Shown here: one piece after another, positions 22,609 through 28,611 of the stretch | Numbering within the stretch: the stretch's first letter is position 1 | Layout of the letters: every line of letters begins with the position of its first letter | Origin: Thermoleophilia bacterium | GTDB taxonomy: Bacteria > Actinomycetota > Thermoleophilia > Miltoncostaeales > Miltoncostaeaceae | Length of the DNA: 34,121 nucleotides | Direction of reading: 5' to 3' | Assembly: GCA_017882585.1 (NCBI GenBank) | Contig: JADGPF010000063.1 | Span: 1-34,121 of the forward strand | Made by a program: the position numbers and the translations under genes | The notes under the pieces: model-generated | What the model was told of the DNA's origin: nothing | Seen by the model: only the letters and a program-made list of their open reading frames with translations | The model's database searches: none

Positions 22609-23193
22609 ATGGTGCGACTGACACGGATCTACACCCGCCTTGGTGACGGCGGCGATACGCATCTGGGCGATCTGAGCCGCGTCCGCAAGACCCACGCGCG
22701 CGTGTGTGCCTACGGCGATGTCGACGAAACCAACAGCGCCATCGGCCTTGCACGGGCCCAGGGACTGCCCGCGGAATTGGATGGGTGGCTGGCGGCCGTC
22801 CAGAACGATCTGTTCGACCTCGGTGCGGATCTGTCCATGCCGGAGCCGCCGGACCCGGCGGGCCCGCCGCGTCTGCAGGTCACCGCGACGCAGGTCACCC
22901 GCTTGGAACAGTGGTGCGACATCGCCAACGACCGGCTGGAGCCGCTGACGAGCTTCGTGCTCCCGAGCGGCACCCGGGCCGCCGCCGCACTCCACCTCGC
23001 CCGCACGGTCTGTCGGCGCGCCGAACGCGCGGTGATCTCCCTGGCCGACCATGAACCGGTGAGCCCGGAGGCGGTCCGGTACCTCAACCGACTGTCGGAC
23101 CTTCTGTTCATCCTGGCTCGGGTCGCGAACGCCGGTGCGGCCGGAGACGTGCTCTGGCGCCCCGGGGGGGCGTCGGCGGACGGCCCCCGCTAG
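22609..23193 (+). CDS. PduO-type ATP:cob(I)alamin adenosyltransferase
   Basis: About 194 residues. The enzyme transfers adenosyl from ATP to cob(I)alamin to make coenzyme B12. 'RIYTRLGDGGDTHLGDLSRVRK' near the N-terminus is the ATP-binding loop, 'YGDVDETNSAIGLAR' follows, and 'LPSGTRAAAALHLARTVCRRAER' and 'RYLNRLSDLLFILAR' are the C-terminal helical signatures of the PduO/MMAB trimer family. Three start codons are stacked at 22606 (GTG), 22609 (ATG) and 22612 (GTG); the ATG best fits the -10 spacing. No B12-dependent enzyme or cobalamin riboswitch is nearby. The stop TAG sits in a CTAG shared with the stop of the convergent gene. Confidence 0.93.
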   Translation: MVRLTRIYTRLGDGGDTHLGDLSRVRKTHARVCAYGDVDETNSAIGLARAQGLPAELDGWLAAVQNDLFDLGADLSMPEPPDPAGPPRLQVTATQVTRLEQWCDIANDRLEPLTSFVLPSGTRAAAALHLARTVCRRAERAVISLADHEPVSPEAVRYLNRLSDLLFILARVANAGAAGDVLWRPGGASADGPR

Positions 23194-24482
23194 TACCGCC
23201 GCGCCATGGCGTAGCTGGTGCGCCACGGATTGTCATACAGCGATGCGATGCGCACACGCTGTTCGGGGCCCGGTGCATGGATGAATTCCCCGCCGCCGAG
23301 GTAGACGCCGACGTGATCGATGGTGCCGGATGCATCGGCGAAGAACACCGCGTCGCCGGCCCGCAGCCCCTGCGGCGCCTGGGCGGTGCCGGCGGCGGCG
23401 AGCCCCGTGAGCGATCCCGGCAGGGAAACGCCCTGGTCCTGGTAGACGGTCTGGACGAGCTCGACGTCGTTGAGCCCGTCCGGGCTGTCGGCGGGATTCG
23501 GCACACCCAACAGCCCGAGTGCAGTTTGGGCTGCCGCCGGACCCTGGGTGCCCGCTGCGGGGGTCGTCGGCGACAGCGACACCAACTGTGACGCGCCACT
23601 GATGATCACGGCGCCGTTGGGATTGCCGCCGAGATCGGCGTAGTACCGGTCGACGTTCGCCTGCCAGTTGTTGTTGAGGTTCATCGGGTCGTTGGCGACG
23701 CCAAGGGGCGCCCACCGCGACTGGATCTCGGCAATCGTGACGAGGCCGGCGCCGCGGTACAGGTTGCCGCCGAGCGTATTGGCGGCCGCCTGGATTGCGG
23801 CGCTCCAGTTCGGGAAGCGCAAATTGGGTCCCAACCCGAACGGATTGCGGATCGCCTGGGCGGGACCGTAGGTGCCAAACGACGTCTCGGCGCCAGTGAT
23901 GGCCACCAGCAGGCGCGGATCGACCCCGACGGACTCCGCGTCGGCGACGAACACCGCGCCGAGCCCGGTGAGCGGGCTCAGTTGACTTTGCAGGAAACCG
24001 TCGATGGTCGCGGCGGTCGGTCCCGGGGCCGGTAGGTTGGCGCCCGCGATCGCGCCAAGCACGGGCGGCGTCAATGGGTTGAGTCCGAGTGAGGCTGCGC
24101 CCGCCTGCTGGCTCGCCAGCGCCTGGGCGGCGATGAGCTGGTTTAGGCGTCGCTGCTGGACCGCCAAGCGGGCGATGAGCGCCGTCTTGCGGACCTGGAG
24201 GCGGGACTGCTGGATGTCGAGCGCGGTGATCGTCGCGGGATCCGTCGCAATGAACAGCTCGTTGCGGATCTGGGCGAGCGTCGCGGACGCCGCGTCGATC
24301 AGGTCCTGGGTGGCGAGGACCTGGGCCTGGGCGGCTTGGACCGTGGGCATCGGAGCGACGGGCGCAGGCGCTGCCGTCGGGCCCGCCCCAAACACCGGCT
24401 GGGTCGCGAGGACCGGCCCGACGACCACCACAAAGGCGACGATCGCGGCGATCCGGGGAAACCTGAGGTGACCGGTGCGCAT
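23190..24482 (-). CDS. Exported cell-wall protein: coiled coil, lysozyme-like domain and a degenerate NlpC/P60 domain
   Basis: About 430 residues from the ATG at 24482; a TTG at 24503 would add seven. The signal peptide is basic then hydrophobic (residues 1-27). Residues about 50-125 form an Ala/Gln-rich coiled coil. Residues about 176-285 look like a transglycosylase/glucosaminidase-type domain ('GVDPRLLVAITGAETSFGTY', with Glu199 as the likely acid, and 'IRNPFGLG'). Residues about 315-430 match NlpC/P60, with 'GDAVFFADASGTIDHVGVYL' and 'EFIHAP' supplying His390 and His402. Where active members have Phe-Asp-Cys-Ser-Gly-Leu-Val this protein reads Leu-Asn-Asp-Val-Glu-Leu-Val, so the nucleophile Cys is replaced by Asp339. 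The peptidase is predicted dead and may be a regulator or binding module. An intact paralogue lies just upstream on the same strand. Confidence 0.85.
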   Translation of the reverse strand: MRTGHLRFPRIAAIVAFVVVVGPVLATQPVFGAGPTAAPAPVAPMPTVQAAQAQVLATQDLIDAASATLAQIRNELFIATDPATITALDIQQSRLQVRKTALIARLAVQQRRLNQLIAAQALASQQAGAASLGLNPLTPPVLGAIAGANLPAPGPTAATIDGFLQSQLSPLTGLGAVFVADAESVGVDPRLLVAITGAETSFGTYGPAQAIRNPFGLGPNLRFPNWSAAIQAAANTLGGNLYRGAGLVTIAEIQSRWAPLGVANDPMNLNNNWQANVDRYYADLGGNPNGAVIISGASQLVSLSPTTPAAGTQGPAAAQTALGLLGVPNPADSPDGLNDVELVQTVYQDQGVSLPGSLTGLAAAGTAQAPQGLRAGDAVFFADASGTIDHVGVYLGGGEFIHAPGPEQRVRIASLYDNPWRTSYAMARRY

Positions 24483-24547
24483 GCACCTTGCGTATCGCCA
24501 CAATCCGGCGGACTCTTGAGACCCGGCACGGGGCGCGCCGACCGGAG

Positions 24548-24559: not shown

Positions 24560-24895
24560 ATGCCGACGGCTCTGCTGATCGCCGACGTGGGCGACGCCCG
24601 TGATGCGGTGGGGCTCTATCTGGCGGGGCGTGGGTGGACGACGGTCCCGATGATCCCGCGGCCCGGCAAAGTCCGGCAGGCGGCGGCGCAGCTCGCTCCG
24701 GAGCTGGTTGCCATCGACTTCCGCGGGCGCCTTGAGGACGCCGTCGCGTGCCTGAGGGCGCTCGAGGGTGGGCCGGCGCCCGTGTACCTGTTCAACGCGC
24801 CGGAGGAGCTGGAATCAGCCGCAGCGAGCGTCACGCGTGCGGACGGTCCCGCCGATGTCCCAACCGCCCCCGGGCATCCGGCGCCGCCGCACTAG
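24560..24895 (+). CDS. Small protein, possibly a degenerate receiver/flavodoxin-like fold, function unknown
   Basis: A 111-residue protein not assigned to a known family. 'MPTALLIADVGDARDAVGLYLAGRGW' looks like a first beta strand, an acidic loop and a helix. 'QLAPELVAIDFRGRLEDAVACLRAL' places an Asp at the end of a third strand where response-regulator receivers have their phosphorylated Asp, and 'APVYLFNAPEEL' resembles a following strand. The protein stops short of a full receiver (about 120 residues) and ends in a Pro/Ala-rich tail. The ATG at 24560 is supported by a leaderless -10. It lies between two minus-strand cell-wall genes, and its stop shares CTAG with the second. Receiver homology is a guess from pattern only. 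Confidence 0.55.
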   Translation: MPTALLIADVGDARDAVGLYLAGRGWTTVPMIPRPGKVRQAAAQLAPELVAIDFRGRLEDAVACLRALEGGPAPVYLFNAPEELESAAASVTRADGPADVPTAPGHPAPPH

Positions 24896-26070
24896 GGCCG
24901 GACGGCTCCGTCGGGTGTACCCATCGACGACAGCGACGCATACGAGACGAACGCGCCGGTGTGTGGTGCCTGGATCACGGTGCCGCCGCCGACGTACATC
25001 CCCTCGTGGGACAGGCCGTAGAAGAAGACGATGTCGCCAGGCTGAAGCTGGCTGAGCGGCACCTTCGGGAACATGTTGTACTGCGCCACCGTGTAATGCG
25101 GCAGGGACCTGCCGATCTGGGCGTAGGCGTAGGCGACCAGGCCGGAGCAGTCGAACCCGGACGGCGATTCGCCGCCCCAGACGTACGGGACGCCGATGTA
25201 GCGCTCGGCAACGGCGACTGCGGCCGCGTTGCCGGATCCCGACGGGAGGCTCACCGGGGATCCGCCTCCGCCGGAGTTGACGCCCGAGGCCGACGAGATC
25301 TGGGTCCCGGTGCCCTGTTGGACGACCTGGTTGCGTTGCGCCGCCTGTGCGGCAGCGGCCTGGGCGGCGGCTGCGGCGGCCGCGGCCGCCTGCTGGGCGG
25401 CGATCTGGGCACGCAGGTTGGCCTGCGCGTTGGCCAGGACGGACTTCTGCTGGCCGAGGAGCGCGAGGACCTTGGTCTTCTGTTGTTGTGCGGCGGTCAC
25501 CTGTTGTGTCGCGGTCTGCTGTGCCGCGACCAGACGGACCCGCTCCGTCTTGAGGTTGTTGAGGGTGCCGCGTACGCCCTTGACGACGGCGCCGTCCTCG
25601 CTACCGATGTGCTGCACGAGGCTTTCGGTATCGACCACCGAGGTGATGTTGCCGGTCGCGAGCAGGACCTGGACGGCATTTGGCTGGGGCGTCGCGTACA
25701 GCTCACGCAGCCGCGTGGCCAAGACGCTCTCCGAGCGGGCCAGCTGTGACGAGTTGGTCACGATCGCTGCCGAGTTCTCGGAGATCTGCTGCTTGGCGGT
25801 CTGCAGACGCCAGATCGCGCCGTCGTAGTTGTTGACCGCAGCATCAGCCTGATAGTTGATGCTGTTGAGCTGGTTCTCCAGCTGCGCGATCTGCGCCTTC
25901 TGGCCCTGGATCGTGGACGGCTGACACAAGGTCGCCACCGGGACGATCAAGCCGGCCGCGAGACCTGCAAGACCCGCGAGTGCGGCGCGACGCCGGGTGA
26001 GGATTGCGCGACCAGTGCTGATAAGCGCGATTCCTTGCTCGGGAGCGGGACGGCCGGGCCTGCTGAACAA
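24892..26070 (-). CDS. NlpC/P60 peptidoglycan endopeptidase with N-terminal coiled coil (RipA-like)
   Basis: About 392 residues. The N-terminus is basic then hydrophobic ('TRRRAALAGLAGLAAGL'), a signal peptide; 'TLC' near residue 49 does not fit a lipobox. Residues about 52-250 form a long coiled coil ending in an Ala/Gln run (about 220-245), then a Gly/Ser linker. The C-terminal NlpC/P60 domain is intact: 'GVPYVWGGESPSGFDCSGLV' has the nucleophile Cys near 307, 'SHEGMYVGGG' the catalytic His, and Gln replaces the second His ('VIQAP'), a position that tolerates other polar residues (RipA has Glu). It would cut peptide stems outside the cell, perhaps in division. The only usable start is TTG at 26070, since an in-frame stop lies just upstream; TTGACC-N16-TAGCTT is a possible promoter there. 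Confidence 0.88.
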   Translation of the reverse strand: MFSRPGRPAPEQGIALISTGRAILTRRRAALAGLAGLAAGLIVPVATLCQPSTIQGQKAQIAQLENQLNSINYQADAAVNNYDGAIWRLQTAKQQISENSAAIVTNSSQLARSESVLATRLRELYATPQPNAVQVLLATGNITSVVDTESLVQHIGSEDGAVVKGVRGTLNNLKTERVRLVAAQQTATQQVTAAQQQKTKVLALLGQQKSVLANAQANLRAQIAAQQAAAAAAAAAQAAAAQAAQRNQVVQQGTGTQISSASGVNSGGGGSPVSLPSGSGNAAAVAVAERYIGVPYVWGGESPSGFDCSGLVAYAYAQIGRSLPHYTVAQYNMFPKVPLSQLQPGDIVFFYGLSHEGMYVGGGTVIQAPHTGAFVSYASLSSMGTPDGAVRP

Positions 26071-27051: not shown

Positions 27052-27615
27052 CTACTCCTGCCGCGGGAGTCGTGCGGACTTACGCTCTTGCTCGCGCGCG
27101 ATCGCTTCCTCGAACCGACGCAAGATGTCTTCGGGGACGCGCCCTTCGGGGACGTCCTCGTCGGGCGCCGCCGCGACGGACGGGATCGGCGATTCGCCCG
27201 GCGCCGACATGTCGTCGCCCGCCCGGGCAATATCGCTCGGCTCGGGACGCGGCTCCGCGCCGGACGGTGGGGCACTCAGGTCGTCGGCCCGGATGATTCG
27301 ATGTGTCCTGCCGGGATCGGTCGATGACTCCTCGAGCCGCATCTCGAGCTCGTCGTTCGGGTCCCCGTGGGCGAACTCGGGCGGCAGGCCGCTCAGGTCG
27401 GCCACGGGGCCGGTCGAGATCACCTCGCCCTCGCGTTCGACGACGACGCGGTACTTGCCGGTGCCGTCGCCATGCATGGTGCCGAGCCGCTCGCGTTCGT
27501 ACTGGGCCGCCAGGAGCGCATCCCGCTCGGAACGGTGCTGGCTGACCTCGCTGCGTTGGGCCGCCGAGGAGCCGGCTTCGCCGACGATCACCACTGTGTA
27601 GCGCTTTCGGAACAT
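27052..27615 (-). CDS. Acidic hypothetical protein sharing a C-terminal FEEAIARE motif
   Basis: About 187 residues from the ATG at 27615; a TTG 9 bases further upstream is less likely. The N-terminal 65 residues ('RYTVVIVGEAGSS', then a charged helix and 'GKYRVVVEREGEV') look like a small folded domain. Residues about 80-155 are rich in Pro, Asp, Glu and Ser and probably disordered. The last 30 residues hold an Arg/Glu amphipathic helix with FEEAIARE, preceded by a Val-Pro-x-Gly-x-Val-Pro segment; both are repeated in the next gene upstream. No family is recognised. A linear motif that docks on a partner or targets the protein is the simplest reading. Confidence 0.65.
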   Translation of the reverse strand: MFRKRYTVVIVGEAGSSAAQRSEVSQHRSERDALLAAQYERERLGTMHGDGTGKYRVVVEREGEVISTGPVADLSGLPPEFAHGDPNDELEMRLEESSTDPGRTHRIIRADDLSAPPSGAEPRPEPSDIARAGDDMSAPGESPIPSVAAAPDEDVPEGRVPEDILRRFEEAIAREQERKSARLPRQE

Positions 27616-27820
27616 GGGCCTCAAGAGTCGTGGTGACCTGGCGCGCGCGCCGCGGGCAGGGTCCGCGGGTCACCGGATGGTAGCGATGTCGGACGCAACG
27701 CTCACCTGGCGCGTCACCGGGCGACGCCTCCGCCGCGTTACCGCGCTTGTACGGCGGGGACACGCTCACCTGGTCGTCGGCCAAATCGGCCCACGAACGT
27801 GTCCATCGGCGGTCTAACCC

Positions 27821-27849
27821 CGTGACGGGTGCGCGTCGCGCCCGTCACG
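27821..27849. repeat. Strong inverted repeat downstream of the 27855 gene
   Basis: CGTGACGGG (27821-27829) pairs perfectly with CCCGTCACG (27841-27849). Inner bases add a T-G wobble and three further pairs, giving a 13-bp stem with the triloop CGT. It begins 6 bp past the stop of the small minus-strand gene. No T-tract follows, so it is either a U-less terminator or an mRNA 3' stabiliser. Confidence 0.65.
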
Positions 27850-27854
27850 TGAGG

Positions 27855-28055
27855 CTAGTCGGAGTAGCGCGCGCTTCTGGCGTTGCGGCGTGCCTCTTCG
27901 CGGGCGATCGCCTCTTCGAAGTACTGGATCACCGAGGCGGGCACGGGTCCCGAAGGGACGTCGTCCCACGATGAGGCGAGCGCCTTCAGGACCGGCTGGC
28001 GGCTGGTCGTCGAGCGGTCGTAGGCGAATGCTGCTGCCGACGCGGATTCGGACAT
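27855..28055 (-). CDS. 66-residue hypothetical protein sharing the C-terminal FEEAIARE motif
   Basis: A 66-residue protein starting at the ATG at 28055, with GGGAGA about 8 bases upstream, a good ribosome binding site. The first half is Ser/Ala-rich. The C-terminal 30 residues ('DVPSGPVP' then 'FEEAIAREEARRNAR') align without gaps to the C-terminus of the 187-residue protein encoded next; I count 17 identities in 29 positions. No known family is recognised. The gene follows the suf operon on the same strand after 106 bp and is followed by a strong hairpin, so it may be a separate small unit. Confidence 0.65.
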   Translation of the reverse strand: MSESASAAAFAYDRSTTSRQPVLKALASSWDDVPSGPVPASVIQYFEEAIAREEARRNARSARYSD

Positions 28056-28161
28056 GGAACTCTCCCAGGCATGGAGGTGACGATTGCAACGATCTTCGCA
28101 CTCGACCCGGACAGTCCTGCAGGCCCAGATCGGTCTCCGTGCCGGCCGAGGGCCACAGCGG

Positions 28162-28611
28162 CTACGCGGTAAACGAATCCCCGCATGAGCACGTCCCCGT
28201 CGCGTTGGGGTTGGTGATCCGGAATCCCCGGCGCAGCAGGGTGGATTCGTAGTCGATCACCGACCCGGTGACGTGAATCGCGCTCTTGAGATCCATCAGC
28301 ACGCGCACGTCATTCGTCGCCACTTCGCGGTCGAGCGGCCCGGCGGTTTCGTCGGCGCCCAACAGGTCGAGTTTGTACTCGAGCCCCGAGCAGCCGCCGG
28401 CAAGGATCCGCAGACGTACGCCGGCGGGCGTGCCGGCCCGTGTGGCGGCGGCACGGATGTACGCCGCGGCTGCCGGGGTGACCCGCAGTAGCCCGGCGTC
28501 GTCGCCGGCCTCCTGGGCGGCACGCGCGGCCCGGGAGCGCGCTCTGGCTGCGGCCTTCTTCTCCTCGAGGGTGAGCGGTGTTGCTGCTTGTGCTGCGGCG
28601 CTCTCAGCCAT
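28162..28611 (-). CDS. A-type Fe-S carrier (HesB/IscA/ErpA family) with N-terminal extension
   Basis: A 149-residue protein. The A-type carrier core (about residues 42-149) has the three cluster ligands: Cys74 in 'LAGGCSGLEYKLDL' and Cys141/Cys143 in 'TCSCGDSF'. Carriers of this family receive Fe-S clusters from the SufBCD scaffold and pass them to apo-enzymes. The first 40 residues are unusual: an Ala/Arg/Glu/Lys-rich helix absent from typical 105-120-residue members. The ATG at 28611 lies within the 3' end of sufT (8-bp overlap), so it is translationally coupled as the last gene of the suf operon. Whether it is the ErpA, SufA or IscA equivalent cannot be told. Confidence 0.92.
   Translation of the reverse strand: MAESAAAQAATPLTLEEKKAAARARSRAARAAQEAGDDAGLLRVTPAAAAYIRAAATRAGTPAGVRLRILAGGCSGLEYKLDLLGADETAGPLDREVATNDVRVLMDLKSAIHVTGSVIDYESTLLRRGFRITNPNATGTCSCGDSFTA

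Follow-up and report, generated by a model that had tools for sequence, protein, structure and literature searches.

Two small adjacent genes of a Thermoleophilia bacterium, here called A and B, encode proteins with unrelated bodies and a common C-terminal tail, which is probably a shared docking handle. Both lie on the reverse strand of the 34,121-nucleotide stretch of DNA analysed (the window), which belongs to a 1.7 Mb draft genome that is 81.6% complete. Gene A (27052..27615, -, with its ATG at 27615) is an open reading frame for an orphan protein of 187 residues composed of a domain, a linker and the tail, and both its body and its tail are conserved in relatives. Gene B (27855..28055, -) encodes 66 residues, namely an arm predicted to be disordered, followed by the tail. 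Read 5' to 3' along the coding strand, the suf cluster comes first, then B and then A; the last suf-cluster gene upstream of B codes for an IscA/SufA-type Fe-S protein (28162..28611, -; PF01521, E=1.5e-12) and is given as context, outside the module. As read from the sequence, GGGAGA, located 5 nt before the ATG of B (28061..28066, -), is a probable ribosome-binding site, and a GGAG-like element also precedes B in its g1 and g6 relatives (genera are designated g1, g2 and so on). On the other side of the pair, a DsbA-like thioredoxin-fold gene (PF01323; 26382-27038, +) ends head-on to gene A, and two consecutive NlpC/P60 cell-wall hydrolase genes (23190-24503 and 24892-26070, both -) are found downstream; an NlpC/P60 gene is also present near A in g6 (L060:1556-2731). 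Searches of Pfam, NCBIfam and PHROGs with A, B and their relatives revealed no credible family, in line with the initial annotation's "motif of unknown function", and a profile-based sequence search of the PDB gave matches at chance level. The few papers found on the genus Miltoncostaea or its order dealt with other topics.

The tails, ...DEDVPEGRVPEDILRRFEEAIAREQERKSARL... in A and ...WDDVPSGPVPASVIQYFEEAIAREEARRNARS... in B, align without gaps over about the last 30 residues. Identical residues occupy 16 of the 29 columns from the Val-Pro onward, or 17 of 30 when the preceding Asp is included, and the initial count of 17 in 29 is thus right within one column. The common pattern reads D-D-x-P-x-G-[PR]-V-P-x-x-[VI]-[IL]-x-x-F-E-x-A-x-A-R-E-x-x-R. 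With the 39 C-terminal residues of A as a query, B was the sole other match in the genome (E=3.9e-7). When profiles of A-relatives and B-relatives were compared, only the final 37 columns matched (E=3.5e-14), indicating that the remaining parts of the two proteins are unrelated, as had been proposed. The tail of A (27064..27162, -; HMM match E=1.5e-15) is of the A type, x-R-F-E, and that of B (27867..27971, -; E=4.1e-20) is of the B type, x-Y-F-E. This difference is kept across genera, x-Y-F-E in B against x-[RK]-[FVW]-E in A; the B tails follow W/L-D-x-[VP]-P-x-G-[PR]-V-P-x-x-V-[IL]-x-Y-F-E-x-A, with His and Ala variants in g2. Conservation peaks at the P-x-G-[PR]-V-P turn and, within the helix, where Val/Ile, Phe, Glu and Arg stand, the turn rather than the helix being the most constant part. 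Helical periodicity of conservation was observed for B (p=0.03) but not for A (p=0.45), and hydrophobic moments of single sequences mostly do not exceed those of shuffles. Consequently, of the turn and amphipathic Glu/Arg helix described initially, the turn and a predicted helix stand but the amphipathicity is weak, and "Pro-Gly-Val-Pro turn then charged helix" is a safer wording.

AlphaFold2 models of A and B were built from three-row alignments. Residues 6-68 of A (27412..27600, -) are predicted to form a small beta-beta-alpha-beta-beta domain (block pLDDT about 61-87), with strands at 6-12 and 20-27, a helix at 30-48 and strands at 55-61 and 64-68. The following linker, residues 70-151 (27163..27408, -), is predicted to be disordered (pLDDT mostly <50, low confidence from 70 to about 142); its length and sequence vary, it is unalignable between genera, and g9 and g10 have an acidic linker of much greater length. 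A C-terminal helix is predicted at 162-180 of A (mean pLDDT 62) and at 40-65 of B (mean pLDDT >90 for residues 41-60), where it is preceded by a low-confidence arm. In both proteins, the prediction is therefore a disordered segment and then a terminal helix. Foldseek searches with the A model found nothing in the PDB (best E 0.27) and nothing significant among viral models (best E 0.024), where the matches were mostly unnamed phage proteins of ~60-90 residues and indicate merely how common the topology is.

The distribution of the tail was assessed in a class sample of 399 genomes, 42 from the family of the window, one genus of which is Miltoncostaea, and 357 from outside it. The link to Miltoncostaea comes from family genome G025, whose contig 2 shows identity to plasmid NZ_CP064357 of Miltoncostaea oceani throughout the 4 kb compared. 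The tail profile (A3) matched 30 of the 42 family genomes, while outside the family only two weak partial matches appeared in the 357 genomes (1.2e-5 and 4.3e-4) and, beyond the class, a single one (7e-4) among 296 genomes sampled from the phylum. The body of A was detected in 28 of the 42, plus two weak outside matches. Tail and A domain share nearly the same limits, essentially those of one bacterial family. The initial annotation would have taken a lack of other occurrences and of conservation as a sign of a recent local duplication without function; the tail is, on the contrary, both widespread in the family and conserved. By genus, A is found in g1, g3, g5, g6, g9, g10 and g12, and B in g1, g2, g5, g6 and g12 and, as a fusion, in g3. 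The pair is not always needed, since A occurs in g9 with B undetected, both g2 genomes give a tail match, B-type or unassigned, without a detected A domain, and the sampled genomes of g4, g7, g8 and g11 contain neither A nor B. G023 likewise has a tail match with no A domain detected; the assemblies of g2 and G023 are 73-86% complete. In G155 the tail is carried by two genes, each of them A-type. A search of nine genomes down to E=10 yielded no third kind of bearer: every match below 0.06 was A, B or the fused form, and the others were scattered and partial, with a best E of 0.066. A tail restricted to two gene kinds does not behave as a label for general addressing.

The two tails appear to have separated early. 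In the best tree of 27 tails, a single branch separates all 13 B tails from all 14 A tails; with no more than 32 columns to compare, its support is low (47 bootstrap, 86 SH-aLRT). On the RpoB tree, where genus mates stand in for the genome of the window, in which RpoB was not matched, the genera bearing A and B span the family. Taken with the split of the tails, this suggests, though with weak support, that the tail duplication is old and predates most genera. Purifying selection on both tails is supported by codon comparisons: pN is lower than pS in the tail for all pairs, with pairwise values of 0.07-0.22 against 0.31-0.82 for B and 0.05-0.32 against 0.34-0.84 for A. Where dS could be estimated, dN/dS came to about 0.1-0.4 in the tail of B and 0.12-0.17 in that of A, ratios that are rough as several dS values were saturated. 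Furthermore, the arm of B evolves faster than its tail in most pairs.

In genus g3, a single open reading frame carries the A domain at its start and a B-type tail at its end (G005, L063:5109-5924; G016, L064:6019-6792). It contains a whole B-like segment, and A's own tail is missing; the stretch before the tail resembles the beginning of B, with MFDTARAS... and MHDTASAI... in g3 compared to MSDTATARAI... in g6. Since g3 is nested on the RpoB tree within lineages having A and B apart and its tails group with B tails, the fusion is, by these phylogenies, derived, and the B tail replaced that of A. This natural swap shows that A tolerates the tail of B. An ancestral single A::B gene, subsequently duplicated, was considered, as the g1 order is B then A, and is disfavoured by the nested position of g3 and its B-type tail. 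Gene fusion is taken as a sign of joint action in the "Rosetta stone" method, as outlined in PMC2570368 and PMC3155505. By this argument, A and B would act together, one tail serving both. In addition, GAGGAG-N6-ATG occurs inside the fused frame of both g3 species (codon 207 in L063, codon 196 in L064), and B may still be made separately from this internal start. An ATG with a short Shine-Dalgarno-like match is found elsewhere in A at a chance rate of about 1/4 (8 of 35, at least one row, g9_G020, being read in the wrong frame). As Glu-Glu codons of an acidic linker yield such sites by chance at an appreciable rate and the two genomes share ancestry, the internal start is suggestive only. A family-specific two-protein module, with a domain-bearing "client" and a bare-tail "cap" encoded by separate genes in most genera, and with g3 making both from one gene, the short form via the conserved internal start, could be envisaged but is rather unlikely in this full form.

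How could these observations be accommodated? Our preferred reading, to which we give slightly less than an even chance, is that the tail is a C-terminal docking element by which A and B are held at one and the same binding site of a single partner in the family. The Pro-x-Gly-x-Val-Pro cap and the helix after it would constitute the docking element; A would bring along its small folded domain, tethered by a flexible linker. B would be little else than the helix that docks, extended by a disordered arm, and may act on the site used by A by capping it, competing for it or tuning it. We infer the binding by the tail, the sharing of a partner and the competing role of B alike. As expected of terminal docking motifs in general, a conserved terminal stretch is found on otherwise unrelated proteins next to predicted disorder. 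The observed basis comprises the shared tail, its age, its restriction to two gene kinds and one family, its conservation and the derived fusion; the helix and the disorder are predicted. The initial annotation had spoken of a docking or targeting signal: docking fits the conserved tail on unrelated bodies, the purifying selection and the natural swap, but the lack of a third kind of bearer does not suit a general targeting tag. Known docking motifs are in many cases carried by several clients, and the two kinds of bearer found here count to some extent against docking as well. So do the lack of a constant neighbour, the helix that is only weakly amphipathic by calculation, and the genera where B (g9), the A domain (g2) or both (g4, g7, g8, g11) were not detected.

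Docking on a common partner has two main rivals, namely self-association and a tail that binds the domain of A itself. In the first, the tail would be a self-association helix giving homo- and hetero-oligomers of A and B with no third partner. The presence of one element of shared ancestry on both proteins agrees with this, the fused g3 protein would need one tail only, and A alone in g9 could still self-associate. On the other hand, the helix offers just two or three hydrophobic turns before its E/R-rich stretch, and it is the P-x-G-[PR]-V-P turn, not a heptad face, that is most constant, which makes oligomerization through the tail somewhat unlikely. Alternatively, the tail could bind the beta-beta-alpha-beta-beta domain of A, in cis when it belongs to A and in trans when it belongs to B, which would make B a switch for A. 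The nearly identical distributions of domain and tail, and the adjacency of A and B in g1 and their fusion in g3, are compatible with such an arrangement; the g2 genomes and G023 speak against it by having a tail without a detected A domain, albeit in assemblies of the limited completeness given above, and we regard this switch as unlikely.

The initial annotation also saw in the position beside suf a hint at the partner, which was not borne out by comparison of gene neighbourhoods. Genes of suf adjoin B in g1 and A::B in g3, whereas several other genes intervene in g6, and the association is absent in g12, g5 and g2. In Miltoncostaea, a cation-efflux transporter gene precedes B and a thioredoxin-like gene is the neighbour of A, with A and B ~0.7 Mb apart in M. 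oceani. In g5, B is next to a small multidrug-resistance transporter gene and A to a dehydrogenase gene; in g2, B is flanked by a permease gene and a DegV-family gene, and A of g9 and g10 lies near a universal-stress-protein gene. In the g9 loci inspected, the gene for a conserved protein of ~63 residues, without a Pfam match, is a close neighbour of A; it occurs at L081:7308-7535 (-) and at ten further loci of g9, and the protein follows the pattern MTA[DE]VAY.FR..H[DE]EL.RA.ADYLA[IV]SRGSHLY.D...AAE..AW.RMM..RDR.DA. No constant neighbour of A or B was found across the genera compared, and the context therefore names no partner. The suf adjacency is best explained, as far as gene order can tell, by the kinship of g1, g3 and g6. 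It follows that a role of the pair in Fe-S cluster assembly, with docking on a Suf protein, is very unlikely: the order in g1 and g3 would favour it, but the intervening genes in g6 and the other surroundings in Miltoncostaea, g5 and g2 do not.

That the tail serves to load its bearers as cargo into an encapsulin or a bacterial microcompartment is less probable still, indeed highly improbable. A linker with a terminal helix on unrelated bodies does resemble encapsulation peptides (PMC12339742), and encapsulin genes exist in g3, in Miltoncostaea and in one g1 genome. Nevertheless, 12 of the 18 tail-bearing genomes have no detected encapsulin, among them several that are 96-99% complete, including G002 (99%), G022 (99%), G012 (98%) and G007 (97%), and the microcompartment shell protein PF00936 was found in 0 of the 18, with positive controls. 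The genomes with encapsulin (PF04454) are G003, G005, G016, G014, G025 and G021, and some genera of the family are without it. Finally, the idea that a C-terminus was duplicated locally in recent times and has no function, for which the adjacency of A and B in the window might be invoked, can practically be set aside given that the A/B split is older than most genera, both tails are conserved and the genes lie far apart in M. oceani.

If A and B do dock through their tails, the tail would provide a ready-made bait with which to look for a hub peculiar to the Miltoncostaea family, an actinobacterial lineage that has hardly been studied; it is carried by two unrelated bodies and nothing else in the searched genomes, and is naturally swapped in one genus. 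A terminal docking element on unrelated bodies is of a familiar kind. No described family in the searched libraries matches A, B or their tail, and the pair stands as a well-founded orphan module specific to the family. DUF2188 (PF09954) resembles the body of A in being a small alpha/beta domain of similar length, but it was rejected as a relative, as profile comparison gave an hhalign probability of 6.8% over 16 columns and A does not match the Pfam model. Pup, the prokaryotic ubiquitin-like protein of actinobacteria, is small, mostly disordered and ends with Gly-Gly-Glu/Gln. B, also from an actinobacterium, is comparably small and mostly disordered and has a single helix; its last residues, however, are unconserved and differ from this ending, and neither B nor the 41 genomes searched gave a PF05639 match, so that an identity with Pup was discarded. 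Encapsulin cargo-loading peptides are conserved C-terminal stretches after a flexible linker, an arrangement that the tail reproduces, but its presence does not track that of encapsulin (6 of 18 genomes). Encapsulation peptides of bacterial microcompartments consist of a short terminal helix on a disordered linker and are found on unrelated bodies (PMC11157265, PMC12339742). The tail shares these features and differs from such peptides in occurring in 18 tested genomes without a shell gene, on two kinds of bearer only, in having a conserved P-x-G-x-V-P turn, and in that one of its bearers is almost all tail.
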